This document shows, piece after piece, positions 4,681 through 48,696 of a stretch of 64,000 bases of DNA; position 1 is the first letter of the stretch, and each line of letters opens with the position of its first letter. The notes beneath the pieces are model-generated. The model ran no database searches and had not been told where the DNA came from. It saw only the letters and a list, made by a program, of their open reading frames with translations. A program made the position numbers and the translations under genes. Origin of the DNA: Pseudomonadales bacterium (lineage in GTDB: Bacteria; Pseudomonadota; Gammaproteobacteria; Pseudomonadales; Ketobacteraceae); assembly GCA_020062665.1 (NCBI GenBank), contig JAGUVW010000029.1, positions 1 to 64,000 on the forward strand, written 5' to 3'.

Positions 4681-4711
4681 TCCGCCACCCTTTTCGAACG
4701 AGGAACGAAGT

Positions 4712-5572: not shown

Positions 5573-5573
5573 T

Positions 5574-5629
5574 TTCACGACGACTGCTTCACGACGACTG
5601 TTTCACGACGACTGCTTAACGACGACCGA
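5574..5629 (+). repeat. Four tandem copies of a 14-bp repeat
   Basis: Directly after the nrtD stop, TTCACGACGACTGC (5574-5587) is repeated at 5588-5601 (last base T), 5602-5615 (exact) and 5616-5629 (TTAACGACGACCGA). The array fills most of the nrtD-porin gap. No hairpin is evident, so it looks like replication slippage, possibly affecting messenger stability. Confidence 0.9.
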
Positions 5630-5659
5630 CATCGATTGAACTGACCTTAGGAGTAGACC

Positions 5660-7003: not shown

Positions 7004-7030
7004 TTCGCAAAAAACATTTGCGCTTTGCTA

Positions 7031-7066
7031 CTGGCGGAAATCCGTGAACGGTTCCGCCAGTTTTTT
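7031..7066 (+). terminator. Intrinsic terminator of the nrtABD-porin operon
   Basis: A 9-bp perfect stem, CTGGCGGAA (7031-7039) with TTCCGCCAG (7052-7060), is followed directly by six T. The opposite strand has no U-run, so it acts on the plus-strand operon only. Confidence 0.9.
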
Positions 7067-8235
7067 CAGGGTCGCAACCAGGTGCTGCCAAACACAAAAT
7101 AGATCACCGGATCATCCGGCCCAAACGCCAGATCCATCCCCATGTGCAATCCATACTTGCGCGCCATCAGATAGCGGAATCCGGCTCCCCCTGCAGTTAC
7201 CGACGTTTCATCATCCCCGCGATCACCGTCACTGCGCACCGTTCCCGCGCCACCGAATGCCACCGCGCTGAAACGCGGATGAAACTGCCAGCGCACTTCC
7301 AGCTCCGTCTCGGCGACCTGTTCGCCCTGATACGCCAGCGCCTGCACACCACGCAGCCACACAAACGGGCGCAGGAAAAATGGCGTGGCATCACTACTGG
7401 CTTTGAGCCCGCCACGGGCAGCCACATACCACTCGGAGGACAGCGGCTGAAACCACATGCCGAGCAACGTCGCCGTTTCGAAATCCCGACTGCTGCCCAG
7501 GCTTTCCCGATAGAGCGGCACAGAAAGATCCAGATACCAGCCCTGGGTCGGTGTGAAGAAATTGTTGCGCTTGTCCACCGACAGCGTCGGTGTCAGTGCA
7601 CCCAGTTCCAGTTCCCGATCATCTTCCGGTATCAGGCCCAGGCGTCGATCCCGTTCGGATTCCAGCGTGATTTCCGTTTTCGCCGTCAGATAGCGCAGGC
7701 CGGCGAACCAGCCGCTGTCCAGCAACCGGTAGCTGCCGCCAAAGACACCACCGGTCTCGCCAATGGAATAGTTCACCCCGTCGCCCGGATTGTGCTGGCC
7801 ACCCAGGCCGAAAAATTCCAGATTCACATCCATGTTGGCCACACCCACCAGCGTGCGCAGCCGGCCATCCATCCAGGAACCCAGGTGGCCGGCAAACTGG
7901 CCTTCGCTGCCGTTCTCGGTCGCCATGCCACCCACCATCGCAATGTCGGGCCGCACGTATTGTCCGTTCTGGTCGGGGGCATTGCGGTCGATAAAGACCA
8001 GCGCAGCCGCTGCACCATAACCCACCGCCGGCTCGGTGATGGGCGCCAGGAACGGCATGAAACCATACGCCGTATCGAGAAATTCACTTGCATCCAGCCA
8101 GCCGTCCGCATCCATGAGTGAAACCTCCTCAGCCAGTGCCGCCACTGGCAACAGTGTCGGCAGACACAGCAGTGGCCACAGGCAAGCCGCCTTGAACACC
8201 CGCACCTGTGGGATTAGAAACTGAAAAGGCTTCAT
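7066..8235 (-). CDS. BamA/TamA-type (Omp85 surface-antigen domain) outer-membrane protein
   Basis: A 389-aa protein with a signal peptide (LLCLPTLLPVAALA, cut near residue 31) and a 16-strand-type barrel resembling the bacterial surface antigen domain of Omp85 proteins. Supporting pieces are LTPTLSVDKRNNFFTPTQGWYLDLSVPLYRESLGSSRDFE in the middle and the C-terminal YFVFGSTWLRP. It lacks POTRA domains, so it is a stand-alone barrel and not BamA itself. ATG 8235 is chosen because AAGGA lies 7 nt upstream and it places the signal peptide at the N-terminus. It converges with the nitrate operon and faces away from 8390. Function unknown; transport or lipid/lipoprotein display are possible. Confidence 0.78.
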   Translation of the reverse strand: MKPFQFLIPQVRVFKAACLWPLLCLPTLLPVAALAEEVSLMDADGWLDASEFLDTAYGFMPFLAPITEPAVGYGAAAALVFIDRNAPDQNGQYVRPDIAMVGGMATENGSEGQFAGHLGSWMDGRLRTLVGVANMDVNLEFFGLGGQHNPGDGVNYSIGETGGVFGGSYRLLDSGWFAGLRYLTAKTEITLESERDRRLGLIPEDDRELELGALTPTLSVDKRNNFFTPTQGWYLDLSVPLYRESLGSSRDFETATLLGMWFQPLSSEWYVAARGGLKASSDATPFFLRPFVWLRGVQALAYQGEQVAETELEVRWQFHPRFSAVAFGGAGTVRSDGDRGDDETSVTAGGAGFRYLMARKYGLHMGMDLAFGPDDPVIYFVFGSTWLRP

Positions 8236-8389
8236 GATGTATCCTTGGAATGTTCGTTTAGCCAATTTATGGCAACAATGAATGGGCGGCGTGTTCCAGG
8301 TCAATGGGTCACCTGTATCCTGCGGGGATAAGATGGACACTGTGATACAGCCCTTCGCTGCAAACCTTGCAATCCGTTCTGGAGTGACT

Positions 8390-9298
8390 GTGAAGCCGCT
8401 ACTGATGTTCTTACGTGCACTGTCGGGATGGCTGCTGTGTGCTGGCGCCGCACTGGCGCAGGACATCGAACCCCGTGCTTACTCCCATGCGCCGGAAGGC
8501 GTGAATTTTGCGGTGATTGGCTACGCGCGTACCGAAGGCGGGCTGGCTTTCGACCCTGCGCTGCCGGTAAAAAATCCCAACCTGGAAACCAACAGCGCCG
8601 TACTGGCCTACGCCCGCAGCCTGACCCTGTGGGGCATGTCCGCCAAGCTCGGTGGCGTGCTGCCTTACACCTGGCTGGACGGATCAGCCCAGTTGGGGAA
8701 TGACACCATTACCCGCACAGTGGAAGGCACCGGCGACCTGCGCCTGTCGGTGAATCTGCTGGGGGCGCCGCCGATGACGCTGCAGGAATTTGCCCGCTAC
8801 CGCCAGGATCTGATTGTGGGTGTGTCACTGAAACTGTCGGCCCCCACCGGTCAGTATGACAGTTCCCGCCTCGTCAACATCGGCAGCAATCGCTGGGCAG
8901 TGGAACCGGAGCTGGGTGTGTCGAAAGCACTGGGGCCGTGGACACTGGAAAGCGCCGTGGCGATGATTTTCTACACCGACAACGATGATTTCTATGGCGG
9001 CCAGACCCGATCGCAGGATGACATTTACACTGCCCACGGCCACATCATCCGCAACTTTGCCGGCGGTCACTGGTTGTCGCTCGACGCCAACTATTTCACC
9101 GGCGGGCGCACCACCCTCGACGGCGAACGCGGCAACGATCTGCAGCAGAACTGGCGCACCGGTATCACGGCAGCATTTTCGCTGGATCGGCTGCACTCGA
9201 TAAAATTCAACGCCAGTAGTGGCGTGTCCGCACGTACTGGCAATAATTTCGACCTGATCGGAATTGCCTGGCAATACCGCTGGGGCGGTGGCCTGTGA
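8390..9298 (+). CDS. Outer-membrane transporter-like protein, Phenol_MetA_deg family
   Basis: A 302-aa exported beta-barrel. The signal peptide (LRALSGWLLCAGAALA) is followed by YSHAPEGVNFAVIGYARTEGG, VLAYARSLTLWGMSAKLGGVLPYTWLDG and VGVSLKLSAPTGQYD, the pattern of the 'MetA pathway of phenol degradation' family. That name is historical and the true role is undefined; a channel for aromatic or hydrophobic compounds is often proposed. GTG 8390 is preferred because TGGAG sits 5 nt before it. ATG 8405 is an alternative. The next gene, a SulP permease, starts 18 bp after its stop, so the two may form an outer/inner membrane pair. Confidence 0.78.
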   Translation: MKPLLMFLRALSGWLLCAGAALAQDIEPRAYSHAPEGVNFAVIGYARTEGGLAFDPALPVKNPNLETNSAVLAYARSLTLWGMSAKLGGVLPYTWLDGSAQLGNDTITRTVEGTGDLRLSVNLLGAPPMTLQEFARYRQDLIVGVSLKLSAPTGQYDSSRLVNIGSNRWAVEPELGVSKALGPWTLESAVAMIFYTDNDDFYGGQTRSQDDIYTAHGHIIRNFAGGHWLSLDANYFTGGRTTLDGERGNDLQQNWRTGITAAFSLDRLHSIKFNASSGVSARTGNNFDLIGIAWQYRWGGGL

Positions 9299-9316
9299 TC
9301 AACGTTGGGAGTCCGC

Positions 9317-11083
9317 ATGACTGAACCATCCCCCACCACACCGACGCAACCAGGCCGCCTGAGCTACGCTCCCGGCACCGAACAACAGGGCTGGCGCCGC
9401 TGGGTGCCGGGCCTGCAGATGCTGGCGCGCTATCAACGCAGCTGGCTGCCACAGGACATCACGGCCGGGCTGGTGCTCACGGCGATGCTGGTGCCGGTGG
9501 GCATCGCCTATGCCGAAGCCTCTGGCGTGCCCGGCATCTATGGCCTGTACGCCACCATCGTTCCGCTGCTGGCTTATGCCATGTTCGGCCCGAGCCGGAT
9601 TCTGGTGCTGGGGCCCGATTCATCGCTGGTGGCGCTGATCCTGGCGGTGGTGTTTCCGCTGTCACAAGGCGATCCCGCCAAGGCCGTGATTCTGGCGAGT
9701 GCGATGGCGCTGGTGTCCGGTCTGATCTGCGTGGGTGCCGGCCTGCTCCGCCTGGGTTTCATCACCGAACTGTTGTCCAAACCGATCCGCTATGGCTACA
9801 TGAACGGTATCGCGCTTACGGTGCTGATCAGTCAGCTGCCAAAAATCCTAGGCGTGTCAGTGGACGGCGACGGGCCGCTGCGCAGCCTGGTGGAAATCGC
9901 CAGCACCGTGCTGGAGCAGCAATTCAATACCGCGTCGCTGCTGATCGGCGCCGGCACCATCGCCATCATTTTTGCGTTCAAGCGCTTCCCCCGCGTGCCG
10001 GGCGTGCTGATCGCCGTGGTCACGGCCACGCTGGCAACTGCCATACTCGATCTGGATAAGACCGCCGGCGTGAAAGTGCTGGGCACCCTGCCCCAGGGCC
10101 TGCCGTCTTTTGTCATTCCGTGGATTACGCTGGAAGAATTGAAGGCCGTGGTGATCGGCGGACTGGCTGTAGCACTGGTGTCATTTGCGGATACCAGCGT
10201 GCTGTCACGCACCTACGCCGCGAAAACCCGCAGCTATGTGAATCCCAATCAGGAAATGATCGGGCTAGGCATTTCCAATCTGGCGGCGGGCTTTTTTCAG
10301 GGCTTTCCCATCAGCAGCAGTTCATCGCGTACACCGGTAGCAGAAGCCGCCGGCGCCAAAACCCAGATCACCGGCGCGGTGGGCGCCCTTGCCGTCGCGC
10401 TGCTGCTGGTGCTGGCACCGGATCTGCTGGAGTACCTGCCCACCAGCGCCTTGGCAGCCGTGGTGATTGCATCTGCCATCAGCCTGTTCGAGTTCCGCGA
10501 TCTGCGCCGCATCTACCGCATCCAGAACTGGGAGTTCTGGTTGTCGATGGGCTGCTTCGCCGGCGTGGCGGTGCTGGGGGCGATTCCCGGTATTGGCCTC
10601 GCCATCGTCATTGCAGTGATCGAATTTCTGTGGGACGGCTGGCGACCGCACTTCACCGTGCTGGGCCGTGCGCCAGGCATTCGCGGCTACCACGACGTCA
10701 AGCGCTATCCCAACGCCCGCCGCATACCGGGGCTGGTGCTGTTCCGCTGGGATGCGCCGCTGTTTTTCGCCAACGCCGAGCTGTTTCAGGATTCCATCTT
10801 GAAATCAGCGGCGGAATCCCCGACGCCGGTGAAGCGCATCATCGTCACGGCAGAACCGGTCACCAGTGTGGATGTGACCTCGGCGGACATGCTGGTGGAA
10901 TTGCTGGGCATCCTGCACCACGCCGGCATCGAGCTGCATTTTGCCGAACTGAAGGATCGGGTGAAGGACAAGATCAAGCAGTTTGAAGTGTTCGATGTGC
11001 TGGGCGAAAACGTGTTTCACCCCACCATTGCGGCGGCAGTGGATGATTATCTGGAGAAACACGGCGTGGAGTGGAAGCCCTGA
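9317..11083 (+). CDS. SulP-family anion permease with C-terminal STAS domain
   Basis: A 588-aa inner-membrane transporter. The N-terminal LPQDITAGLVLTAMLVPVGIAYAEASGVPGIYGLYATIVP is the SulP signature, followed by about 10-14 helices to residue 430 and a cytoplasmic STAS domain (about 455-580; KRIIVTAEPVTSVDVTSADMLVEL). The family exchanges sulfate, bicarbonate, nitrate or dicarboxylates; the substrate is not decided here. The STAS loop reads SVDVTSADML, so the usual regulatory D-S pair is shifted to D-V-T-S. GGGAG precedes ATG 9317. It lies close behind the 8390 outer-membrane gene. Confidence 0.9.
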   Translation: MTEPSPTTPTQPGRLSYAPGTEQQGWRRWVPGLQMLARYQRSWLPQDITAGLVLTAMLVPVGIAYAEASGVPGIYGLYATIVPLLAYAMFGPSRILVLGPDSSLVALILAVVFPLSQGDPAKAVILASAMALVSGLICVGAGLLRLGFITELLSKPIRYGYMNGIALTVLISQLPKILGVSVDGDGPLRSLVEIASTVLEQQFNTASLLIGAGTIAIIFAFKRFPRVPGVLIAVVTATLATAILDLDKTAGVKVLGTLPQGLPSFVIPWITLEELKAVVIGGLAVALVSFADTSVLSRTYAAKTRSYVNPNQEMIGLGISNLAAGFFQGFPISSSSSRTPVAEAAGAKTQITGAVGALAVALLLVLAPDLLEYLPTSALAAVVIASAISLFEFRDLRRIYRIQNWEFWLSMGCFAGVAVLGAIPGIGLAIVIAVIEFLWDGWRPHFTVLGRAPGIRGYHDVKRYPNARRIPGLVLFRWDAPLFFANAELFQDSILKSAAESPTPVKRIIVTAEPVTSVDVTSADMLVELLGILHHAGIELHFAELKDRVKDKIKQFEVFDVLGENVFHPTIAAAVDDYLEKHGVEWKP

Positions 11084-12905: not shown

Positions 12906-14489
12906 TCAGCTGCCGATCACGCCATTGACGATCGGTGCAAACGCCGTCAGCGAATCCCGCATGGTGTTGTTGCCCAGGCCATGGCCGGCAAAGCGCGTGG
13001 CAAACTGGCTCTGTTCGCCATGCAGTGCCATGTAGTTCAGCGCCACGGTTTCCACCAGCAGGTTCACGTTGTTGGCCGCCGGGCTGGAGGAGTTGTCCAC
13101 ATCGCCGGACGCGCGGAACCAGCCAATCTGGCGACTGGTGCCGGTGAGTGCGGCACGGCCATTGGGGTTGTACACAAGGAAAAACGATGCCGCAGTGGAC
13201 TGGTTGTCGCCGGTCCACTGGCCCTTGCCACGTCCGCCGGCGGAATCATCCACCATGCCGTTGCTGGCCACCGAGCCGTCACTGAACACATACAGCATCA
13301 GCGGCACTCCTACCCGGTGGGCATACTCCAGACAGGCACCCATGCATTCGCCGGCGCGGAAATCCCGTGCTTCGCCAGTGGAGCGATCACCGGTGTGATA
13401 ATCGAAACCACCCATGGTGATGGAGCCCGCGCCGGAAAAGCCGTTCACCACCAGCTTCATGACCGACGCCGTCTTCTGATATTCACCGTCGCTGTTGAAA
13501 TCCGCCGACGAGAAAATGCCACCGGCGCCCACGATGTCCACGTCCGCCACCGGATTCAGGGTTGAAGGATCCCCATAGCGATCCGCCAGATCCGCGCTCT
13601 TGACGTAACCGCAGCGGATCAATTCGCGGATGACCTCTTCGCGGCCCACGCCCACCCTCGGATCCAGATTGCCCATCTTCTGCTCGCTGACGCGGGCGAT
13701 GGATTCCATCACGCTCACTACATCCTGCTGATCCAGCAAACCCACCAGCTTGCCGGTATCCACCAGGCCGGTCACGTCACTGGGACGATCCACCTTGGTG
13801 GGCCGCACCGATGGATCCATCCACATGGCAGGCGCCATCGAGTTGCCACCGGAATCCGCTGCACGGGAACCGATCAGGGTCAGCAGTTCGCCGTCGGCAC
13901 CGGCCCGATAGATGTAATACAGCGGGCTGTGGGGGTTGTTGCCGGTATCATTTTCGGAGCGCGCCGGAATCACCGCGCCATCGGTATTGGCCAGCGCCCC
14001 GGCCGAAGCACGCCGCAGAATGCCGCGCAGAAACGCGCTGTCGGTATGGAACAGCAAACCCAGCTGGTTGTTGATGAAATCCCGGGTCTGGGTTTGCGGA
14101 TTGGCGATCGACGGCACCATGTCGCCCGGCAAGCCCAGCTTGCTGTAGCCTTCGGTGCTGAGAAAATCGTCCTGACCACCACGCCCGCCCACCAGCACGT
14201 TGGAGCCGGCAATATTGGCACCGCCCGCCAGATCGAAGCAGATGAACGGAATCTTGCCCGCACCCTGCACGGTGATGCCACACTGGCTGCGCAGCGTATT
14301 GATGTCACTGGACAGCTGCGCGTAAGCCGCGCGGGGGTTGGCGAACAAGCCCAGGATGCTGGGACCCAGCACCGATGCGGCACCGGTCATCATGCCCTGG
14401 CGGATAAAATCACGGCGGGTCTTGGGCCGCGCGTGATCCGGATGCAGCAGCGGCGCGTCGGGATGCAGATTGCGATTTTTATTTTTCAT
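12906..14489 (-). CDS. Tat-exported DUF1501-like protein
   Basis: A 527-aa protein with a twin-arginine signal (KTRRDFIRQGMMTGAASVLG, residues about 23-42, cut near AAYA at 57). The body resembles DUF1501, a sulfatase-fold-like family found beside haem-c lipoproteins. Segments include FICFDLAGGANIAGSNVLVGG, SITMGGFDYHTGDRS and VPLMLYVFSDGSVASNGMVDD, the last two rich in Asp and His that could hold metal. It is the third gene of a minus-strand operon with the LamG di-haem lipoprotein and the mono-haem protein; Tat export implies folding with a cofactor in the cytoplasm. The substrate is not known. Confidence 0.7.
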   Translation of the reverse strand: MKNKNRNLHPDAPLLHPDHARPKTRRDFIRQGMMTGAASVLGPSILGLFANPRAAYAQLSSDINTLRSQCGITVQGAGKIPFICFDLAGGANIAGSNVLVGGRGGQDDFLSTEGYSKLGLPGDMVPSIANPQTQTRDFINNQLGLLFHTDSAFLRGILRRASAGALANTDGAVIPARSENDTGNNPHSPLYYIYRAGADGELLTLIGSRAADSGGNSMAPAMWMDPSVRPTKVDRPSDVTGLVDTGKLVGLLDQQDVVSVMESIARVSEQKMGNLDPRVGVGREEVIRELIRCGYVKSADLADRYGDPSTLNPVADVDIVGAGGIFSSADFNSDGEYQKTASVMKLVVNGFSGAGSITMGGFDYHTGDRSTGEARDFRAGECMGACLEYAHRVGVPLMLYVFSDGSVASNGMVDDSAGGRGKGQWTGDNQSTAASFFLVYNPNGRAALTGTSRQIGWFRASGDVDNSSSPAANNVNLLVETVALNYMALHGEQSQFATRFAGHGLGNNTMRDSLTAFAPIVNGVIGS

Positions 14490-14520
14490 AACAGAATCCT
14501 CAAACTCTCATCACGTCCCG

Positions 14521-17115
14521 TTACTGCAGCAACACGGCTGCGGAACCCAAAGCGGCCGCACAGGTCGCCTTGACGATTTTCTGGGTGTCGATGCTGTTGC
14601 TGGCGCCCGGATGGCGACCGCTCAGCAGCTGGATCAGATCATCCAGTTCCGCCTTCATGGCCACTTCATCCGGCTGGGATTCCAGGCCCACACCCACTAC
14701 CCGTGCGAACAGCGGATCGATGATCTGGTCGCGCTCGGTGGTGGTATCAAACGCCGGCGTCACACCCGTATTGAAGTTGGCGAATCCCGGGAAGAATGCG
14801 CTGCGCAGGCCAGTGTTATCCACCATCTCGCTGCAGTACTCGATCGCCAGCTGTGCCACCGCCATCTGCTGGGCCGACACAAAGGTTTCCACCGAAGGCG
14901 TGCCCGGCAACTGCTGCCGCACCGTGTTGTAAGTATTGCGCACATTGGTGTTGGTGACCGGCACACCGGTGATCTTCGACATCGACGCGCTGATTTCGGC
15001 AAACATGCGCAGGCCGATATCCGGTTCTGCGTCGCTCGGGGTGGGCGGCACGGGGCTCACCACACCTTCCACGCGCACGTCGCTTTCTTCACCGATCAGC
15101 TCGAAGGTCAGGAAGAATTCATCGGCGTTGGAACCCAGCTCCAGCGGGATGATGGTGCCGATGCCGGACAGCGGCTGGCCCATCTCGCCGTACTGGCTGG
15201 ATTCCAGCGTGGTATTCAGCTTGGCGTAGGCCTGGCCGACTGTCGGCTCCTTGCCATTGATACCAATGCGCATGCCCCGCAGCGGAATGTTGCTGTAGCT
15301 GTCCTGCCCGGTGCCGCCGTTGGCGGTGCGGTACAGGAACGGCGCGTTGAACAGATAGCTGTAGCTGTCGAAGATGCTGGTTTCGAACACCACGTAGCTG
15401 TTGAAGCCGTCGTCGATGTCCACCAGATCGGTGACGTTGAACATCAGGTAATACTTCTCACCCACGCCAGCGTCGAAGTTGGTGACGATCTCGCTGGGAT
15501 TCAGCACCCGGTTATAGATGGCCACGAAGCGCACCACGCCCTGCCACTGGCGCGAACCCGAGGATTCGCTGCCGACGATAAAGGCAAAACCGTCATCCCA
15601 GCCGTTCAGGCTGCCACCGGCAGAAGGATCCGCATCATCGGTGAAGATGCCGTTGACGTAGATACGACGACCATTCACTGGTGAATAGGTCACCACCACA
15701 TGCTGCAGGGTCGCCTGCAGATCCTCGTCGTCCGCGTTGGTGGTCAATGCCGGTTCGCCATTGCCGCTGGTGGTGCTGGCACGGTTGAGGAAATCGTAGC
15801 GGTACTGGGTCTGGCCCAGCGTGAAATTGCGCTCCGATGTGCCGGAAGAATAGGTCAGGATGCGCGCCGGGCCTTCCTGAACCACGTTGGCGGGCGCAAC
15901 CCAGGCTTCGATGGTGTATTCACCGCTCATGCGGATCTGGTCAGCCAGTTTCTTGCTGCTGGCGGTGGTTGCCTGCGCGCGGCCGCCTGCACCCAGCTGG
16001 ATGCCGTTGCCGCCCACCCACTGCACGTTGCCAAACAGCGTCAGGTTCATGCGCGGTTCCACGCCACTGCTGTCCGCCGCAATCACACCTTCACCTTCAG
16101 AAAAGTCCCACTTGGCAATGGCGCCGGTATCCACGCGGCCACCGCCACTGGCCAGGATGCCGTCGGATTCCAGCACCATGGCCTTGCTGGTTTTCCAGTT
16201 GGCCGGGATCGCATTCGGAGCAGACACAGCGTTTTCCAGATCCTTGATGGCATCGAGCATTTCCGCCGCATCCGCCATGCAGTCGTTGCCGCAGTTGTGG
16301 AATTCGCTGCGCAGACGCACCACAAAACGGGACAGCGCTTCATTCAGCGGGCGATCCAGCACACCGTCGTCGATATCCATCCGGGCGCGCGATGCATCAT
16401 AGGCTTCATTCAGATTGAGGCTGGCAAAATAGGGCTGCTGCGGTGTGGCTGTGCCAGACCGGTGACAGCTGTCACATCCGTATGCGGCAAACAGCGGATA
16501 GACCGTGGTGCCAAACGCAGACACCACCGAATCATAGTCACTGGCACCTGTTACCGGGAATTGTTTGGTAACCGTGATCTCCTGATTGCTCTTTTCCTGG
16601 CTCAGACTCAACTCGATGGTTGTGGTGTCACCATTGCCACCGCCCACCCAGTCCTCGATGGCGCGACGCAGGTCACCGGCGCACACGGCGTTGCCACCGT
16701 CGATCCAGCAGTTGTGACCATCGTTGACTTTTTCCACCACGCGGGAGCTGCCCGGGTTGTCGCGGTTGATCACCGTCAGCGCCTGGGTGTAGGCGGAGTT
16801 GACGTTATCCTCGCGCACGAACTGCGGCGCCTGACCGCCCACATCGTGACAGCTGCCGCAGCGGTTATCCGCGCGGAACTTGTCGAAGAAATAAATCTTG
16901 AAGCGCTGCACGTCCTCATTGGCCGGCACCGGGCCAATGTAGGGGCCGACTGTACCCGAGCCGGTGTTATTGCCACCGCCATTGGGATCACTGTTCATCT
17001 TGTTCTCGGCGCCACCACCGCAGCCGCCCACGATCAGCGTCGCCGCCAGCAGCAGCCACCCCAGGCCCGACCTGCCGTTCTTCTTGTTCATGTTTGAATT
17101 CATCGACCCGCTCAT
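14521..17115 (-). CDS. Di-haem c lipoprotein with LamG/concanavalin-like domain
   Basis: An 864-aa lipoprotein: lipobox LIVGGC gives the lipidated Cys at 32. Two haem-c sites, CGSCH (86-90) and CDSCH (214-218), lie in the N-terminal third, both in contexts typical of single-haem cytochrome c folds. A LamG/ConA-like domain spans about 332-545 (KWDFSEGEGVIAADSSG, YTIEAWVAPANV, HVVVTYSPVNGRRIYVNG, AIYNRVLNPSEI). The C-terminal 300 residues are unassigned. This implies an outer-surface electron-transfer protein with a carbohydrate- or protein-binding domain. GGAGAG precedes ATG 17115. It is the second gene of the operon, 54 bp after its neighbour. Confidence 0.8.
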   Translation of the reverse strand: MSGSMNSNMNKKNGRSGLGWLLLAATLIVGGCGGGAENKMNSDPNGGGNNTGSGTVGPYIGPVPANEDVQRFKIYFFDKFRADNRCGSCHDVGGQAPQFVREDNVNSAYTQALTVINRDNPGSSRVVEKVNDGHNCWIDGGNAVCAGDLRRAIEDWVGGGNGDTTTIELSLSQEKSNQEITVTKQFPVTGASDYDSVVSAFGTTVYPLFAAYGCDSCHRSGTATPQQPYFASLNLNEAYDASRARMDIDDGVLDRPLNEALSRFVVRLRSEFHNCGNDCMADAAEMLDAIKDLENAVSAPNAIPANWKTSKAMVLESDGILASGGGRVDTGAIAKWDFSEGEGVIAADSSGVEPRMNLTLFGNVQWVGGNGIQLGAGGRAQATTASSKKLADQIRMSGEYTIEAWVAPANVVQEGPARILTYSSGTSERNFTLGQTQYRYDFLNRASTTSGNGEPALTTNADDEDLQATLQHVVVTYSPVNGRRIYVNGIFTDDADPSAGGSLNGWDDGFAFIVGSESSGSRQWQGVVRFVAIYNRVLNPSEIVTNFDAGVGEKYYLMFNVTDLVDIDDGFNSYVVFETSIFDSYSYLFNAPFLYRTANGGTGQDSYSNIPLRGMRIGINGKEPTVGQAYAKLNTTLESSQYGEMGQPLSGIGTIIPLELGSNADEFFLTFELIGEESDVRVEGVVSPVPPTPSDAEPDIGLRMFAEISASMSKITGVPVTNTNVRNTYNTVRQQLPGTPSVETFVSAQQMAVAQLAIEYCSEMVDNTGLRSAFFPGFANFNTGVTPAFDTTTERDQIIDPLFARVVGVGLESQPDEVAMKAELDDLIQLLSGRHPGASNSIDTQKIVKATCAAALGSAAVLLQ

Positions 17116-17169
17116 TGTTATCTCTCCACCACGTTTGCCCAGGCTCTACCGGTTTGTTGGGGCTGACAC

Positions 17170-18378
17170 TCAGTCACCCCGGCAGTAGGCCGCCGCATCC
17201 GTGAATACATTCTGCAGGTTATAACCATTCTTGAAATTCGAAACCATGCTGGAAACCTGTGCGATATCCCCCACCGTGGTCGGTGCATGCAAACAGACTG
17301 TCTTGAACACATGCTGCACCTGACACTGGGCGAACGCTTCGGTGTGCGCCAGCTCCATGCCCATGGACTTGGCACCCTGACCACCGGCTGGCAGACCATT
17401 GTCCCAGCCCAGCGCCGAGTTCTGACCCTCACGCCAGTAGTTGTCCCACTGATCATTCGGCGTGGCATAACCGTAGCGGAAGGTATCGGCATTGATCAGG
17501 TACTTGGGCTGCACGCTGTTGGGCGTATAGACGATCTCGCCTTCGTCGGTGCCTTCTTCACCCGACCAATTGTAGTAGGCAAATGCCTGCGCCAGCGGAT
17601 CCATGCCCGCATGGCAACCCACGCAGTTGTTCATGAACAGGCGGCTGTCACCGCCGGGGCTGCGGGACACGTCCTGACGGATACGATCCGGCGTGCGGGT
17701 GGTGTCCTTCACCTGCTCCAGATCCAGGCAGAGGAAGTTCATCATGGTGAAGCGCAACATGGCGCGGTTGGTACCTGCCACGAAATAGGCCTTGGCGCCC
17801 TGGCGGGTGGTCATCACGCCAGCGGTGGCACTGGAGGGCAGGTAGGACTGGCTGGTACGCACCAGAACATCTTCGTCACCCAGATCGGCACCGCTGTTTT
17901 CCAGCGCCACATAATGATCGTTGTTGGCTGAGGAATAGGCTGGCAGACCGTTGCCATTACCCACATAGAGCACATCGTCATGCAGCGCCTTGCGGAAGTC
18001 GTCGCCATCGCGCACCAGCCCGATCAGGGTGGCGGTGAAATCGTTGAGATCGGCGAAAACCGTCTGCTCCTCGTTGGACCAGGGCGTAAACAGATTCTTG
18101 AGGGTGACGTTATAAAAGCTGGGACTTTCCAGCGCGATGGCGGCGGCCTCGCGGGCCAGTGCATCACTGTTGGTCACGTTGTCTTCGTCGGGATCCATGA
18201 TCGCCAGCATCTGGGCCAGCTCGCCATCGGTAGGCGGCACCCCGGCAATGCGATCATACATACGTTTGGCCTGGTCACGGGCACCCGCTTCAACCGACGC
18301 AGATGTCACAGCCAGACCCATTGCGAGCGCCAGCGCGCCCAGCCTTGTTGCCCAGGACAGATTCTTGTTCTTGAACAT
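17170..18378 (-). CDS. Exported mono-haem c protein
   Basis: A 402-aa secreted protein with a signal peptide (LGALALAMGLAVTSASVEA) and one haem-binding CVGCH at 252-256, preceded by DSRLFMNNCVGCHAGMDPLAQAF, similar to the C-terminal haem region of DUF1588/DUF1585-like cytochromes of planctomycete type. The conserved FLCLDLEQVKD at about 215-225 fits that group. Start 18378 is taken because GAAGGATTGG lies upstream and it sets the signal peptide correctly. It is first in the operon 17170-14521-12906 and faces the di-haem PD40 lipoprotein across 271 bp. Confidence 0.72.
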   Translation of the reverse strand: MFKNKNLSWATRLGALALAMGLAVTSASVEAGARDQAKRMYDRIAGVPPTDGELAQMLAIMDPDEDNVTNSDALAREAAAIALESPSFYNVTLKNLFTPWSNEEQTVFADLNDFTATLIGLVRDGDDFRKALHDDVLYVGNGNGLPAYSSANNDHYVALENSGADLGDEDVLVRTSQSYLPSSATAGVMTTRQGAKAYFVAGTNRAMLRFTMMNFLCLDLEQVKDTTRTPDRIRQDVSRSPGGDSRLFMNNCVGCHAGMDPLAQAFAYYNWSGEEGTDEGEIVYTPNSVQPKYLINADTFRYGYATPNDQWDNYWREGQNSALGWDNGLPAGGQGAKSMGMELAHTEAFAQCQVQHVFKTVCLHAPTTVGDIAQVSSMVSNFKNGYNLQNVFTDAAAYCRGD

Positions 18379-18649
18379 GGCACCCAATCCTTCAATTCTG
18401 ACTGACAGCAAACGCAAGACATTTCTTTTCACCGTACGCTATCAGTGTAAACAAGCGATCGCCGTTCAATGCGTGATCGCCTTCGCAATACCCAATTCGG
18501 GAGAGTCCCTGCTGTCAAAGGTGTGATTCAGTCGTGCCTTCCGTAAACAAAGTGATGTAAAACTCCACTCCGTTCAGTTTTGCGCCTTAAATTAGAGGGG
18601 GTCATTCTGATTGCACGTGGCAGTCGGGGCGACAATGGGCAGGATCGAT
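18379..18649. promoter_or_regulatory. Divergent control region between the two haem-protein transcription units
   Basis: 271 bp separate the minus-strand cytochrome operon from the plus-strand di-haem lipoprotein, so both promoters should lie here. The AT-richer stretch at about 18545-18600 (for example TGTAAAACTCC, CCTTAAATTAGAGG) is the best place for the plus-strand promoter. I could not assign -35/-10 boxes or an operator with confidence. Confidence 0.4.
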
Positions 18650-21442
18650 ATGGCTTTCAATTCCAAACACAACAGATTTTCGGGTTCTACATTCCCAATG
18701 GGCATAATGAAATCCCTGATGCTGGCGCTGGGCGTGACGCTGCTGGCGGCCTGTGGCAGCTCCGACGACTTCCCCGCCGGCAACAAGAGCCAGCAACCGG
18801 ATCCGCTGGTCACCGATATTCCGCTTTTTTATATCGAGCGCCCGCTGCGCCCCGGTGACAACGGCGGCTTCGAGCCCGACAACCTCAAGGATCCCATCAC
18901 CTTTCACGGCAACGCGCGCCTGATCATGAAGATCCGCGCGGATCAGAGTGCACCCTCGGTGAACCTTTCGGCCCGCGCCATGCCCGGCAACGTCGACGTG
19001 CGGGATCTGGACGTGTCGCCGGATGGCAATCTGGTGGTGTTCTCGCTGCGGGCGCCGCAGATCGAGGACGCCGACGAAGAGGATCAGCCCACCTGGAACC
19101 TGTGGGAGTACGATATCGCCAACGATGAGGTGCGCCGGCTGATCAGCTCGGATGTCCGCGCCGAGAATGGCCACGACATCACCCCACGCTACCTGGCCGA
19201 TGGCCGGGTGATCTTCGCGTCCACCCGCCAGCAGAAGTCACGTTCCATACTACAGGACGAAGGCAAGGATCAGTTTTCGCACATGATCGAGGGCGGCAAC
19301 AATCCGCCAGAAGCCCTGAACCTGCACGTGTTCGATCCCGAGACCCAGGAAATCACCCAGGTTACCTTCAACCAGAGTCACGATTTCTATCCGGTGGTGA
19401 TGAATGACGGCAAGATCGTGTTCACCCGCTGGGAGAATTTCGGCGGCTACGATCGGCTCAGCCTGTACGAGATGAATCCCGACGGCACCGAGCTGCAGCT
19501 GCTCTACGGCCACCACACCCAGACCGACGCCGCCACCAGCGTCCGCTTCACCCGCAGCAATGTGCTGCCCAACGGCGATCTGTTCGTGATGGTGCGGCCC
19601 GATCGCACCAACTTCTACGGCGGCGACTTTGTCCGCATCGACACCAACCGCTATATCGACAACACCCGCGCGGTGGCCACCAGCAGCGGCAGCGGGCCGG
19701 CCCAGACATCCATCACCGACCGCGTGATCGTCACCGATGGCACCCTGTCACCCGGCGGCTATTACTCAGCTTTCTATCCCCTGTGGGACAACACCGGTCG
19801 CGCCGTGGTGAGCTGGAGTCGCTGCCGCATCACCCTGAACGGCACCACCCAGCCCTGCAATGACAGCAACGTTTCTGCGCCAGGCGCCACCATTGCACCG
19901 GCGGCTTACGGCATCTGGACGTACGATTACGGCAACGACACCCAGATCCCGATCATCGCCGCCCAGGAAGGCATCGTGTACACGGATGTGGTGCTGGCCG
20001 CCCCCCGCACCAGTCCCAGTCTGCGCTATGACGGTGATTCGCTGACCGGCGCGCTCGAAGGCAAAGTGTCCGCCGGCACCTTCTCGTTCATGACCGACCC
20101 GGAAAACGAGGAAGCCATCATCCATATCCGCAACGTGTACGATTTCGATGGCGTGTACGACAACCTGGGTGGCGGCCTGAGCTATGCGTCCGTATCCAAT
20201 CCATCCCTGAGCGATGCAGCCCAGCGCCCGGCCCGCTTCCTGCGCGTGGTGAAAACCGTGTCGGAGCCGCCCCGCACCCTGAAAAATCCCGCCAACGGCA
20301 GCTTCGGTGTGGCTGGCGCCCAGCGCATGAAGGAAATCATCGGCTATGCCCCCATCGAACCGGATGGCTCGGTGAAAGTGCGGGTGCCGGCCAACGTGGC
20401 ATTGATGCTCAGCATGGTGGATGCCAACGGCAAGATGCTGCAGGCGAACGGCGCTACCGGCGGCCTGCTGCGGCACCAGAACTGGATCACCCTGCGCCCC
20501 GGCGAAGTGATGGAGTGCAAGGGCTGCCATACCGCCAACAGCACTGCGCCCCATGGCCGTTATGATGCCCAGGCCGATTCGCTGAATGCTGGCCAGCCCC
20601 CTGGATCAGCCTATCCTGGCGCCGTCGGCACCATCACCTCACCCTTTGCCAACGCCACCATGGCCGAAGCGCGAGTGGCCGCCGCCGGTTCCGATGACGA
20701 CGACATCATGGAGCTGAGCACCGATCTGCTGTTCAGCGACGTGTGGACCGATCCCGGTGTCGAAACACCCGATCCCGACATCAGCATCCGTTACGCCGAT
20801 CTGCCGCTGGGCCTGACATCACCTGCCAACAGCAGTTGCAATGATCCTGCTGCCACACCAGCGCCGCGCGGCTGGAACAGCCGCTGCCGCATCGTGATCA
20901 ACTACGAACAGCACATCATGCCGATCTGGGAACTGGATCGGGGCGCGCTGCCGACTCCAATCCTGGCCAGCGACATGGAGCCCGCCACCTGCATCCGCTG
21001 CCACAACCCGACAGCGATGCTCGACGACGCCGACGTGAATGGCGATCCACCCACCCAGCTCAACCTGTTCGACACCCCCGCCGACGCCCAAGGCATCCAG
21101 CGCAGTTCCTACCGTGAACTGTTTGCAGCCGACGTGCCCAAGGAAGTCGTCGACGGCCAACTGGTGGACTGCACCCTGCAAGTACCGCGGGTGGATGAAA
21201 ATGGCGATCCAGTGCTGGACGGTGACGGCAACCAGATCATCGATACCGAAACCTGTCCCGCCAACGTACCCGCCGCCATGTCCGGCAACGGCGCCTACGC
21301 CAGCAGCCGTTTCTTCGCGGTGTTCGAAGGCGCAGGCAGCCATGTTGGCTATCTCACCCCGGCCGAACTCAAGCTGATCGCCGAATGGCTGGATATCGGC
21401 GCCCAGTACTACAATAATCACTTTGCCGCGCCCGACAACTGA
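18650..21442 (+). CDS. Di-haem c lipoprotein with PD40/TolB-like beta-propeller, HzsA-related
   Basis: A 930-aa lipoprotein (lipobox LLAAC, Cys 35). Residues about 100-330 show repeated PD40/TolB-like propeller motifs (VRDLDVSPDGNLVVFSL, GHDITPRYLADGRVIFAST, HDFYPVVMNDGKIVFTRW). Further on, APIEPDGSVKVRVPANVALMLSMVDANGKML leads into WITLRPGEVMECKGCHT, an arrangement known from hydrazine synthase alpha-subunit (HzsA)-related proteins. The haem sites are CKGCH (Cys 623) and CIRCH (Cys 781). There is no evidence of anammox; 'HzsA-related' describes fold only. ATG 18650 has AGGA five bases upstream; ATG 18707 would give a shorter signal peptide. Likely anchored in the outer membrane facing the periplasm or surface. 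Confidence 0.72.
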   Translation: MAFNSKHNRFSGSTFPMGIMKSLMLALGVTLLAACGSSDDFPAGNKSQQPDPLVTDIPLFYIERPLRPGDNGGFEPDNLKDPITFHGNARLIMKIRADQSAPSVNLSARAMPGNVDVRDLDVSPDGNLVVFSLRAPQIEDADEEDQPTWNLWEYDIANDEVRRLISSDVRAENGHDITPRYLADGRVIFASTRQQKSRSILQDEGKDQFSHMIEGGNNPPEALNLHVFDPETQEITQVTFNQSHDFYPVVMNDGKIVFTRWENFGGYDRLSLYEMNPDGTELQLLYGHHTQTDAATSVRFTRSNVLPNGDLFVMVRPDRTNFYGGDFVRIDTNRYIDNTRAVATSSGSGPAQTSITDRVIVTDGTLSPGGYYSAFYPLWDNTGRAVVSWSRCRITLNGTTQPCNDSNVSAPGATIAPAAYGIWTYDYGNDTQIPIIAAQEGIVYTDVVLAAPRTSPSLRYDGDSLTGALEGKVSAGTFSFMTDPENEEAIIHIRNVYDFDGVYDNLGGGLSYASVSNPSLSDAAQRPARFLRVVKTVSEPPRTLKNPANGSFGVAGAQRMKEIIGYAPIEPDGSVKVRVPANVALMLSMVDANGKMLQANGATGGLLRHQNWITLRPGEVMECKGCHTANSTAPHGRYDAQADSLNAGQPPGSAYPGAVGTITSPFANATMAEARVAAAGSDDDDIMELSTDLLFSDVWTDPGVETPDPDISIRYADLPLGLTSPANSSCNDPAATPAPRGWNSRCRIVINYEQHIMPIWELDRGALPTPILASDMEPATCIRCHNPTAMLDDADVNGDPPTQLNLFDTPADAQGIQRSSYRELFAADVPKEVVDGQLVDCTLQVPRVDENGDPVLDGDGNQIIDTETCPANVPAAMSGNGAYASSRFFAVFEGAGSHVGYLTPAELKLIAEWLDIGAQYYNNHFAAPDN

Positions 21443-21541: not shown

Positions 21542-22282
21542 ATGTTTGCCCGTATTCTGATTGCGCTTGTCGTTGCCTGCAGTTTCAGCGCTGTTAGCGC
21601 CCGTGCGAGCGAATATCCCTCGGTGGAAGTTCAGGACGCCTTCCTCGATCTGCGCACCGGCCCCGGCGAGGGCTATCCCAAAGTGCAGATCGTTGAGCGC
21701 GGCGACTTCGTCGAAATCCTGCTGAGCAAGACCGACTGGTTCAAGGTGCGCACCCGCAAGGGATTCGAGGGCTGGGTACATCGCGACGACATGGAACGTA
21801 CCCTCGATCCCGATGGTGACAAGATCCGCATCAGCACCGTAGGCGAAGATGAATTCGCCCACCGCCGCTGGGAAGCCGGCGTCAAGATGGGCGACTTCGA
21901 AGGCAACACCATGGTCGGCGGCCTGCTCGGCTACTACTTCACCCAGAACCTCTCCATCGAACTGAACGCCAGCGAAGCCCTGGGCAGTTTTTCCGACAGC
22001 CAGCTGTACAGCCTCAGCATCACCCACCAGCCCTGGCCCCAGTGGCGCTGCTCGCCCTACTTCATCATGGGCGGCGGCGCCATCAAGATTCAGCCCGAAG
22101 CCAAATTCGTGCAAACCCGCGACCGCACCGACCAAACCGTTCACGCCGGCCTCGGCATGCGGGTCTACATCACCCGCCAGTTCATGTTCCGGGGCGAATA
22201 CCGCAGCAACGTCATCCTCACGGATGTCGACGACAACTTAGAGATAGAAGAATGGACACTAGGATTCTCCGCGTTTTTCTGA
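21542..22282 (+). CDS. SH3-domain plus beta-barrel outer-membrane protein
   Basis: A 246-aa exported protein: signal peptide to about residue 23, then a bacterial SH3 domain (about 28-80; FLDLRTGPGEGYPKVQIVERGDFVEILL, TDWFKVRTRKGFEGWVH), then a small barrel (about 105-246) ending in FSAFF. The SH3 part probably binds peptidoglycan and the barrel sits in the outer membrane. The gene overlaps the next by 31 bp and belongs to a five-gene run with the barrel, TlpA, DUF4266 and DUF3570 genes, which suggests one envelope machine. Confidence 0.72.
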   Translation: MFARILIALVVACSFSAVSARASEYPSVEVQDAFLDLRTGPGEGYPKVQIVERGDFVEILLSKTDWFKVRTRKGFEGWVHRDDMERTLDPDGDKIRISTVGEDEFAHRRWEAGVKMGDFEGNTMVGGLLGYYFTQNLSIELNASEALGSFSDSQLYSLSITHQPWPQWRCSPYFIMGGGAIKIQPEAKFVQTRDRTDQTVHAGLGMRVYITRQFMFRGEYRSNVILTDVDDNLEIEEWTLGFSAFF

Positions 22283-22917
22283 TGCTGGCGGCCGGCCTGG
22301 CCTTGCCCGTTGTCCCCGCGCTGGCGGAAGAAACAAGCAGCGTGGACGAAACGCCTGTCATCGACCCCAACATCGTGCGCCTGGGCCTGCGGGAAGCGGA
22401 CATCGATGCCCTGGACGTCGAAGTTGGCGCGTTTTTCGGCTTCATGAGCGTCGAGGATTTCGGCACCAATGAAGTGTACGGCGCCCGCCTGGCCTGGCAT
22501 GTCACCGAGTACCTGTTCATCGAAGGCCAGTACGGCATGACCAGCGTGGGTCGCACCAGTGCCGAAAGCCTCGACCCCACCCTGAACCTGCTGACCGATG
22601 CTGATCGCGATCTGGTTTACTACAACGCCTCACTGGGCTTCAACGCCCTGCCCGGCGAAGTCTTCATCGGCGAGAACGCCGCCTTCAACACCGACATCTA
22701 TTTTCTGCTCGGCGCCGGCACCACCGAGTTCGCCAACGATCGCATGTTCACCATAAACGCCGGACTGGGTGTGCGTTTCATTGCCTACGACTGGCTGGCA
22801 ATACATCTGACCTTCCAGGATCTGATTTTTGAAAAAGTTGCCATTATCGATCCGGCCAATAGTGGGGATTCAGCACACAATATGCAGTACACCACCAGCT
22901 TCACGGTGTTTTTCTGA
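22252..22917 (+). CDS. Small outer-membrane beta-barrel protein
   Basis: A 221-aa exported protein with signal peptide LRVFLMLAAGLALPVVPALA and a barrel body (VEVGAFFGFMSVEDFGTNEVYGARLAWHVTEYLFIEGQYG) ending FTVFF. It resembles the 'outer membrane beta-barrel domain' proteins that often follow SH3-barrel genes. Its start overlaps the end of the upstream gene by 31 bp, so translation is likely coupled. A shorter start at 22282 is possible. Confidence 0.68.
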   Translation: MDTRILRVFLMLAAGLALPVVPALAEETSSVDETPVIDPNIVRLGLREADIDALDVEVGAFFGFMSVEDFGTNEVYGARLAWHVTEYLFIEGQYGMTSVGRTSAESLDPTLNLLTDADRDLVYYNASLGFNALPGEVFIGENAAFNTDIYFLLGAGTTEFANDRMFTINAGLGVRFIAYDWLAIHLTFQDLIFEKVAIIDPANSGDSAHNMQYTTSFTVFF

Positions 22918-22940: not shown

Positions 22941-23450
22941 ATGACACTGACCACTCGCATCGCATCCCTGCTGGCAGTCGTTCTCATCGCCCTGAGCCCG
23001 CTGGCCCAGGCCGCCAACGAACCGCTCAAGGGCGTGGCACCCAATTTCACCCTGCCCACGTTTGGCAAGAAGCAGCTGTCGTTGAGCGACTTCAAGGGCG
23101 AAGTGGTGATGGTGAACTTCTGGGCGTCCTGGTGCGGCCCCTGCCGCGAGGAAATGCCATTGATCGAAAACCTGCACAAAAAATACAGCAAGCTGGGCTT
23201 TACCGTGCTGGGCGTCAACGTGGATGCAAACCCCAAGGACGCCGCCAAGATGCTGAAGGAAATTCCCGTCAGCTTCCCCATCGGCTTCGACGCCAGGAAC
23301 AAGGTGAGTGAGCTGTACAAAGTGGATTCCATGCCCAGCACCGTGATGGTGGATCGCAAGGGCAACATGCGCTTTCTGCACCGGGGCTACAAACCGGGCT
23401 ACGAAGCGGATTATGAAAAACAGATTCGGGCACTGATCCGGGAACAGTGA
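22941..23450 (+). CDS. TlpA-like periplasmic thioredoxin
   Basis: A 169-aa periplasmic thiol-disulfide protein: signal peptide ending AQA at about residue 24, active site WASWCGPCREEMP (Cys pair near 66-69) and cis-proline region SMPSTVMVDRKG. Such proteins reduce cysteines, for example before haem-c attachment or metal insertion. The stop overlaps the DUF4266 start by one base. Thioredoxin-DUF4266-DUF3570 is a recurring gene trio. Confidence 0.9.
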   Translation: MTLTTRIASLLAVVLIALSPLAQAANEPLKGVAPNFTLPTFGKKQLSLSDFKGEVVMVNFWASWCGPCREEMPLIENLHKKYSKLGFTVLGVNVDANPKDAAKMLKEIPVSFPIGFDARNKVSELYKVDSMPSTVMVDRKGNMRFLHRGYKPGYEADYEKQIRALIREQ

Positions 23451-23707
23451 TGAACACGACACGCGCAAACCGATCGATGAAACGCCTGCGGGCGCTGGTG
23501 CTGCTGACACTGGCAGCGGTGCTGGTGTCGGGCTGCAGCACCGTCAAACCCTGGGTGAAACCCTATGAGCGCACCAACCTGGCGGACCCGATCATGAGCT
23601 TCAGCCGTGATCCGGTGGCGCAGGTATATCTGCACCACGTTTACCAGGCGCGGGAAGGCGCCCGCGGTGCCGAAGGTGGCGGCGGAGGTGGCTGTGGCTG
23701 CAACTGA
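23450..23707 (+). CDS. DUF4266 lipoprotein with Cys/Gly tail
   Basis: An 85-aa lipoprotein: LAAVLVSGC lipobox, then VKPWVKPYERTNLADPIMSFSRDPVAQVYLHHVYQAREGARGA, the DUF4266 core, and a glycine-rich tail ending GGGGGGCGCN. The terminal Cys-Gly-Cys would be a natural substrate for the upstream TlpA thioredoxin or a metal or cofactor site. The start overlaps the TlpA stop by one base (TGATG). Its end overlaps the DUF3570 start by 14 bp. Confidence 0.82.
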   Translation: MNTTRANRSMKRLRALVLLTLAAVLVSGCSTVKPWVKPYERTNLADPIMSFSRDPVAQVYLHHVYQAREGARGAEGGGGGGCGCN

Positions 23708-24833
23708 TCCACGTCGCATTCTGCTACTGGTTCTGGCGCTGCTGCTGAGCAGCGGCGCACAGGCCGCCGTTCTGCCCGCCGATCGTGCCGACATCATGTA
23801 TCACAAGTATGAAGGCGGTGGCATGACCATCGACGGCCCGTCGGTGCTGGTGCGCAAAGCGGTTTCCGACAGCGTGTCCCTCAGCGCCAACTACTACGTG
23901 GATCAGGTGTCCTCCGCCTCCATCGACGTAGTCACCACCGCCAGCCCCTACACCGAGGAGCGTACCGAATACAGCGTCAGCGGTGACTACCTGCTGAACA
24001 AGACCATCCTCAGCCTGGGCATGACCACCAGCAGCGAAAACGATTACGACGCCACCACCTACTTCCTCGGCATCAGCCAGGATTTCTTCGGCGACCTGTC
24101 CACCCTGTCCCTGAGCTATGCCTACGGCGCCGACGATGTGGGCATGAGCACCGACCCCACCTTCAACGAAGACATCCGGCGCCAGAACTACCAGTTCAGC
24201 TGGACTCAGGTGATGACCAAAAACCTGATCATGAATTTCAACTACAACATCATCACCGATGAAGGGTTTCTGAATAATCCCTACCGCTCCGTGCGTTTCC
24301 GCACCGAAAGCGGCTATTCCTACGAACCCGAGCTGTATCCGGAAACCCACACCAGCCATGCTTTTGCCGTGCGCGGGCGCTACTACCTGCCCATCCGCGC
24401 TGCCTTCCTGTTCGACTACCGGCGTTTCAACGACACCTGGGAAATCAGCGGCTACAACATCGAGTTCGGCTACATCCAGACCTTCCTCGAACACTGGACG
24501 GCCGAAGCCAAGGTTCGCTACTACAAGCAGTCCGAAGCCGAGTTCTATTCCGACCTGTTCAGCCGCTCCAGGGAATTCCAGTATCGTGCCCGCGACAAGG
24601 AGTTGAGTGATTTCACCGACACCACCTTCGGCCTGGGCATCAGCTACGAATTCAAACCCCAGTGGGCCGGTAACTGGGTGGAAAAGGCCTCGGCCAACCT
24701 GATGCTGGATTTCATCAACTTCGATTACAACAACTTCCGCGACCTGCGCGTGGAAGGCCGGGAACCCGGCACCGAACCCCTCTACAGCTTCGACGCTACT
24801 GTCACCCGGTTATTCCTTTCTGTTTGGTTCTGA
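23694..24833 (+). CDS. DUF3570 outer-membrane beta-barrel
   Basis: A 379-aa protein. GTG 23694 is chosen because GGAGG lies five bases before it, inside the end of the DUF4266 gene, and it gives a proper signal peptide (LLLVLALLLSSGAQA). The body has alternating strands typical of DUF3570, including VLVRKAVSDSVSLSANYYVDQVSSASID and FGLGISYEFKPQW, ending FLSVWF. DUF3570 barrels are associated with DUF4266 and often ApbE flavin transferases; no ApbE is present here. Confidence 0.82.
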   Translation: MAATDPRRILLLVLALLLSSGAQAAVLPADRADIMYHKYEGGGMTIDGPSVLVRKAVSDSVSLSANYYVDQVSSASIDVVTTASPYTEERTEYSVSGDYLLNKTILSLGMTTSSENDYDATTYFLGISQDFFGDLSTLSLSYAYGADDVGMSTDPTFNEDIRRQNYQFSWTQVMTKNLIMNFNYNIITDEGFLNNPYRSVRFRTESGYSYEPELYPETHTSHAFAVRGRYYLPIRAAFLFDYRRFNDTWEISGYNIEFGYIQTFLEHWTAEAKVRYYKQSEAEFYSDLFSRSREFQYRARDKELSDFTDTTFGLGISYEFKPQWAGNWVEKASANLMLDFINFDYNNFRDLRVEGREPGTEPLYSFDATVTRLFLSVWF

Positions 24834-48606: not shown

Positions 48607-48696
48607 CAACGGCAACACCGAAACATCGCTCAATCCCGAGGCGAAGGTTCGCACAGACTTCGCCCTTTAGCATTGCATCAGACCATAAGAAACAAC

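Follow-up and report, generated by a model that had tools for sequence, protein, structure and literature searches.

Envelope machines of the Agl-Glt/Nfs type are described as serving surface transport and interacting with extracellular polysaccharides (Wartel 2013, PMC3858216), and their Myxococcus members are the machines behind gliding and spore-coat assembly. The function of the gammaproteobacterial core complex of this type is called unknown by Luciano (2011, PMC3169522), whose main text contains 0 occurrences of the word 'cytochrome'. Flavin-dependent envelope modules have been described separately: DUF3570 is reported as a proven ApbE substrate and has been proposed to act in extracytosolic electron transfer, and DUF4266 is reported to have a conserved CxC (PMC8238504). 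For the haem proteins discussed below, the nearest described proteins are the planctomycete-type PSCyt/PSD cytochromes with LamG domains (He 2017, PMC5615132) and HzsA, around which a wider HZS-like family using other substrates was proposed in 2023 (PMC10732223).

Here we analysed a 64-kb stretch of DNA from a Pseudomonadales bacterium (the window) and compared it with genomes of the same class. Judged by sequence, a conserved gene set found in many gammaproteobacteria, whose members we call A to I, looks as though it builds a surface haem/flavin redox complex and travels with an Agl-Glt-related envelope machine. The preliminary description of the window had considered its system undescribed, and we likewise did not find the A–I cluster in the open-licence PMC papers searched, which covered DUF3570/DUF4266, HZS_alpha and hydrazine synthase, DUF1501-type families, and flavinylation with electron transfer.

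Haem proteins of the locus

Open reading frames and profile matches placed four genes, A to D, where the preliminary description had put them. On the reverse strand, A (12906–14489) encodes a 527-aa Tat-exported protein outside known families, with TRRDFIRQG near its N terminus; B (14521–17115) encodes an 864-aa lipoprotein with a lipobox and two CxxCH...HNC modules followed by a LamG domain (E = 1.1e-19); and C (17170–18432, likely start ATG 18378) encodes an exported mono-haem protein. On the forward strand, the D frame (18611–21442) opens with TTG, has likely starts at ATG 18650 or 18698, and encodes an HzsA-like di-haem propeller lipoprotein, again with a lipobox. By motif count, the haem sites are CGSCH (16846–16860) and CDSCH (16462–16476) in B and CVGCH (17611–17625), followed by AGMDPLAQAF, in C, all on the reverse strand, and CKGCH (20516–20530) and CIRCH (20990–21004) in D on the forward strand. 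The five CxxCH sites first noted on three envelope proteins were thus all recovered in B, C and D, compared with 0.07 expected from composition across the 45 larger non-overlapping open reading frames of the window. As read from their N termini, which are of the lipoprotein type in B and D, these haem-c sites sit on one predicted exported protein (C) and two predicted lipoproteins (B and D). A 271-bp region between the ATG starts of C and D at 18378 and 18650 (18379–18649) had also been proposed as a shared control region; the gap itself is real, but no sigma-70-like promoter site was found in it, so its control role is putative.

The haem motifs are conserved across the neighbourhood loci. 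C had one CxxCH in 27/27 rows and B had two in 25/27, the exceptions being one masked sequence and one cut by a contig end, and B had a single CxxCH in four C-B-A sets remote from D (L093–L096). Of 39 D rows, 28 had two CxxCH motifs, seven had three, and two, which are one genome fetched twice, combined a CxxCH with a CX4CH; the remaining two were incomplete.

Within the C family, PSD2 (PF07624) matched 17/27 members (best 1.5e-6) and PSCyt3 (PF07627) matched 10/27; the window protein matched PSCyt3 alone, at 0.017, which is under the cut-off. C is probably a distant, divergent protein of the PSCyt3/PSD2 (DUF1588/DUF1585) type. We rejected B and C as relatives of each other, the haem motif being their sole common feature. 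The combination of a LamG-bearing c-type cytochrome with a PSCyt3/PSD2-like protein is shared with the planctomycete-type cytochromes presented in PMC5615132. Unlike those cytochromes as presented there, A, C and D are each single-copy in the window genome, the system here involves a lipoprotein with links to both a flavin module and a motor, and the partner is A, from outside known families.

Protein A is not supported as a DUF1501 protein

Pattern matching found a twin-arginine signal in 25/26 A homologues, and in this family the motifs GGxDYH and SDGS are conserved and four Cys are invariant. The preliminary description had assigned A to DUF1501, an assignment for which we obtained no profile support: the window protein had no match to DUF1501 (PF07394) at E ≤ 10, and 25 members of the family had none at E ≤ 1. 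We rejected both DUF1501 and DUF1552 for A, as the hhalign alignment comprised, beyond one short motif, the Tat signal alone. GGFDYH/GGxDTH and SDGS/SDFG do align by eye, in the same order, between A and these two families. When the signal was removed, the profile comparison scored 26.3, against 20.4 for the best of 30 column shuffles and with no clear margin over the 24.7 obtained with an unrelated alignment. The AlphaFold model of A had a mean pLDDT of 29 and was unusable for judging the alkaline-phosphatase/sulfatase-like fold suggested for it.

A true DUF1501 gene occurs elsewhere in the window genome, adjoining a DUF1800 gene (L103, C50:18000–30000, at 3826–8097), and this DUF1800 gene has a weak, below-cut-off PSD2 match. 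Given that match, A–C resemble a distant parallel of the DUF1501–DUF1800 pair, with A still not a DUF1501 protein by any test. In some bacteria, DUF1501–DUF1800 pairs are reported to adjoin genes for chitin synthase (PMC5122149), a neighbourhood that gives, by analogy, a weak hint of polymers for A–C. The open reading frame after the pair in L103 appears PepSY-like by eye.

D resembles HzsA

D matched the HZS_alpha middle domain with an E value of 7.4e-15 and 55.7 bits, over the Pfam cut-off of 26.6; it failed the NCBIfam equivalog for HzsA (NF052339), with 37.2 bits against a cut-off of 800. The propeller, HZS_alpha middle domain, haem and C-terminal helix align in the same order in D and HzsA, and the top PDB match of the D model, which has a mean pLDDT of 45 and is fair in the propeller alone, was HzsA (5c2v; E = 9.5e-17, TM 0.32). 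In HzsA, Tyr591 is the haem-ligand Tyr (PMC12758564, section 8); by plain counting, Tyr was found at this position, four residues beyond the His of the first CxxCH, in 0/37 D rows. This agrees with HzsA homologues outside anammox bacteria, which reportedly also lack the Tyr ligand (PMC12758564, section 8). Among the genes read in the window, none neighbouring D is HzsB- or HzsC-like, A–C and E–I belonging to other families. In contrast to HzsA (5c2v), D is a lipoprotein without the ligand Tyr and without an HzsBC-like neighbour. On the missed equivalog cut-off and the absent ligand we rejected hydrazine chemistry for D, bearing out the initial caution that likeness to HzsA does not mean such chemistry.

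D proteins divide into those with two haems and those with three, and the three-haem type makes up one side of a branch supported at 100/100. No linked A–C was present in the seven three-haem loci read; in three of the genomes with a three-haem D (G036, G044 and G214), C-B-A lies elsewhere with a one-haem B. We considered a constant total of five haems, made up of a three-haem D and a one-haem B, and set it aside, as it fits these three genomes only and leaves out a small haem protein, N. This small lipoprotein lies between D and E in five three-haem-D loci (L063, L065, L066, L067 and L070) and has a CX4CH motif in both sequences read; the L065 copy had no Pfam or NCBIfam match.

Outer-membrane, thiol and flavin proteins

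Genes E to I follow D on the forward strand. E (21542–22282) encodes an SH3 domain and an outer-membrane beta-barrel (a match over cut-off to Pfam OMP_b-brl and one below cut-off to TIGR04565), and F (22252–22917), which overlaps the end of E, encodes a further outer-membrane beta-barrel that matched TIGR04565 (OMP_myx_plus) with 131 bits against a cut-off of 60. G (22941–23450) is a TlpA/ResA-like thioredoxin with CGPC; H (23447–23707) is a DUF4266 lipoprotein ending in GGGCGCN, which contains the CxC (81.6 bits, cut-off 27); and I (23607–24833, with the true start probably later) is a DUF3570 protein (132.8 bits, cut-off 25). Motif reading located two flavinylation-like motifs in I, SSAS (after DQV) and TTAS (23910–23945, forward strand), both of which deviate from the published motif [S/T]GA[S/T] (PMC8238504). 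Among the loci, D-x-[IV]-[ST]-x-A-[ST] was present in 34/36 DUF3570 rows, with a second such site in 21, CxC in 34/35 DUF4266 rows, and CxxC in 34/34 TlpA-like rows.

All 39 D-positive genomes encode ApbE, and so do 7 of 14 control genomes, so its presence per genome says little. An ApbE of one subtype lay within the fetched stretch in 18/38 loci. In the window genome, the ApbE on contig C14 (C14:13717) is 53–59% identical to the seven closest cluster-subtype ApbEs, compared with 31–33% for the other C14 copy, and is the predicted cognate ApbE of the DUF3570/ApbE system. Because ApbE often lies outside the stretch, mining of ApbE neighbourhoods could miss the D-type cluster.

DUF3570, DUF4266 with CxC, a thioredoxin-like protein and ApbE are also the constituents of the clusters described by Meheust (2021, PMC8238504), to which the barrels E and F and the haem lipoprotein D are added here. 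The E and F models had no match in 21 other DUF3570 loci, which comprise 20 of the 21 highest-scoring places and L102. We rejected an invariable pairing of DUF3570 modules with haem proteins: a haem protein directly adjoins the module in 2 of these 21 loci (L102 and L122), so haem is not general to such modules, and CxxCH open reading frames lie farther off in four more (L108, L109, L115 and L119). That all D-type loci have haem follows from their selection and proves nothing. The locus L102 is a second DUF3570 module of the window genome (C53:96000–110000, at 5257–10843), with a RoxA-like cytochrome (859 aa, 3 CxxCH, PF21419 at 7.6e-21) alongside TlpA-like, DUF4266, DUF3570 and ApbE genes. 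In L049 (3017–4148), the DUF3570 gene reads as two open reading frames, with an in-frame TGA in the search.

Distribution and gene order

Among 274 genomes of the same class (Gammaproteobacteria), D was found in 39, carrying 27 family labels, A in 35, C in 33 and DUF3570 in 71. The preliminary description had staked its claim on co-occurrence of the genes across genomes, and they do co-occur: A was present in 33/33 and D in 31/33 C-positive genomes, D in 32/35 A-positive genomes, and DUF3570 in 38/39 D-positive genomes. Fisher tests gave p values of 1e-25 to 1e-40 for co-occurrence between modules, with genomes treated as independent and kinship ignored. A was absent from seven D-positive genomes, and D was of the three-haem type in the four of these that were read. 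In a phylum-wide draw of 398 genomes, whose class make-up is unstated, D was found in 11, all of the same class or order. Named D-type loci include Thiogranum and 'Gammaproteobacteria bacterium'.

The arrangement of C, B and A in tandem on one strand and D divergent from them was seen in 25/39 loci (38 fetched and the window), and the complete co-directional series from D to I in 31/39; several incomplete loci end at contig edges, and L032 and L048 come from one genome. Where C-B-A lies elsewhere (L093–L099), its genes are still together, and at L092 and L139 a small lipoprotein stands in D's place, with E–I and K (a protein described below) kept. The subunit distance correlation between B and D was 0.93 over 20 loci, with L044, L057 and L068 dropped and kinship ignored. 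At L068 (genome G034), D is split into two open reading frames (5935–7755), C-B-A and a cluster-subtype ApbE remain, and neither DUF3570 nor K had a match in the genome, as expected if the parts decay together.

An Agl-Glt-type core complex accompanies the cluster

K, which has no Pfam family and serves here as the marker of the core complex, adjoins the cluster in 26/38 loci, as do the TPR proteins L in 24/38 and M in at least 8/38, the last count being a lower bound since many stretches end before M. In six of eight genomes, the stretch downstream of the D set goes on to a small TPR lipoprotein, then in some genomes the small protein x9, and then TolQ, TolR, TolR and an AgmX/PglI-tailed protein; no TolQ or TolR follows in the other two stretches (L128 and L131). 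These core genes matched MotA_ExbB (2.9e-30), ExbD (two genes) and the AgmX/PglI C-terminal domain (6.9e-21, over cut-off). The TPR lipoprotein scored 51 bits against GltE, for which the cut-off is 225, and MamA and PilW score higher; the TPR lipoprotein of the window genome scored 25 bits (8e-6) against GltE.

K was present in 59/274 genomes, comprising 38/39 with D versus 21/235 without D (p = 3e-30, kinship ignored), and in 28 of the 38 genomes with both it lies at most 25 kb from D on the same contig. At scores above 170 bits, a cut chosen after the scores were seen, K occurred in 42 genomes, 38 of them D-positive, and weaker K (17 genomes) never occurred with D. The redox part is not obligatory, since four genomes with a high-scoring K had no D match, among them G093, which ends at a contig edge. 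Four further K loci (L140–L143), one of which is an additional copy in a D-positive genome, have core complexes without any A–I gene in the stretch.

K, L and M are absent from the 64-kb window itself. In the same genome, a separate contig, C14, carries K, L, M, the TPR lipoprotein, x9, TolQ (7e-19), two TolR and the AgmX/PglI-tailed gene (2.2e-17) at about 32.6–43 kb. The predicted Agl-Glt core set (TolQ, two TolR, the AgmX/PglI-tailed protein and TPR proteins together) was thus found in 6/8 downstream stretches and on this contig. A further TlpA-like gene lies within the C14 run (L135, 13672–14175), between K and the AgmX/PglI-tailed gene. The Agl-Glt and Agl-Nfs systems of Myxococcus xanthus and the gammaproteobacterial core share with this set the grouping, in a single region, of one TolQ/ExbB-like protein, a pair of TolR/ExbD-like proteins, TPR proteins and an AgmX/PglI-tailed protein, as set out in PMC3169522 and PMC3858216. 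Unlike Agl-Glt/Nfs, the set here has as companions a Tat protein, a LamG lipoprotein and a surface module of haem, flavin and thiols, and whereas Wartel termed the gammaproteobacterial core stand-alone (PMC3858216), it is linked here to a module.

Co-occurrence and gene order therefore provide good support for a link between the haem–flavin–thiol envelope module and an Agl-Glt-type machine. The four-gene surface system first described stands as a coherent envelope haem system; its extent does not, as the flavin/thiol outer-membrane module and the Agl-Glt-type machine also belong to it.

Interpretation and alternative explanations

We propose that A–I are the surface haem–flavin–thiol redox module of an Agl-Glt-type machine and probably act on a surface polymer, a reading in which gene order and co-occurrence provide the linkage and to which, with its postulated chemistry, we give even credence. 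A larger envelope machine would have A–I as its outer-membrane and surface portion. Its thiol and flavin set would be the TlpA-like G, the CxC lipoprotein H and the DUF3570 protein I with its ApbE-type sites, and its core would be a TolQ/TolR/TolR proton channel, an AgmX/PglI-tailed TonB-like protein and the TPR proteins. Electrons may pass among the mono-haem C, the surface haems of B and D, the thiols of G and H and a flavin bound covalently to I; the proton-driven motor may move, present or assemble the surface complex; and the redox part would act on the machine's polymer by oxidising, cross-linking or cleaving it. A surface polymer is the suggested substrate because B has a LamG domain, A is Tat-exported, and Agl-Glt/Nfs systems work on extracellular polysaccharides.

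The haem and flavin sites and the outer-membrane barrels would also suit plain extracellular electron transfer, in which B and D serve at the surface as terminal reductases or oxidases of a metal, minerals or humics and are supplied by way of the flavin of I, in line with the role proposed for the ApbE substrate DUF3570 (PMC8238504), with the Agl-Glt core only positioning B and D and no polymer chemistry taking place. However, no protein of A–I has more than three haem motifs, so an MtrA-like conduit is absent from the set, and the LamG domain and the Tat-exported A would be left unexplained; we consider this account rather unlikely. We think it improbable that E–I and the core are an assembly or export device that matures B, D and A and delivers them to the surface, with the TlpA and DUF4266 proteins handling cysteines for haem attachment or disulfides and the haem proteins as cargo. 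The TlpA-like G and the CxC of H suit thiol handling, and L092 and L139 retain E–I and K while another small lipoprotein occupies the position of D, but such a device requires neither a flavinylated protein nor ApbE, and C-B-A is sometimes unlinked and D sometimes absent. That C-B-A, D–I and the genes from K onward are separable in the genome would fit two or three independent functions brought into a common neighbourhood by chance or by common regulation. This we regard as very improbable: co-occurrence persists when the parts are unlinked, for C-B-A in G075, G203 and G197 and for K in ten D genomes including the window's own, at the Fisher p values given above.

A broader and more doubtful suggestion, which we offer tentatively, is that one widespread form of the gammaproteobacterial Agl-Glt core may be the proton-driven motor behind a redox-active machine at the surface, which would bring haem, thiols and covalent flavin there and build or remodel an extracellular polymer by oxidation. 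HzsA of anammox bacteria may then be a specialised relative of such surface haem lipoproteins. The gammaproteobacterial core gains partner proteins with biochemical handles (haem stain, flavin fluorescence and a lectin-type domain), which make its role testable in cultured species. HzsA-like proteins are also seen outside anammox bacteria, as a conserved component of an envelope system, and DUF3570 systems gain a class linked to haem.

Elsewhere in the window, GC falls to 51% at 50–54 kb, and the open reading frames at 48673–50367 and 53995–57138 were read by eye as HsdM and HsdR of a type I restriction-modification system.
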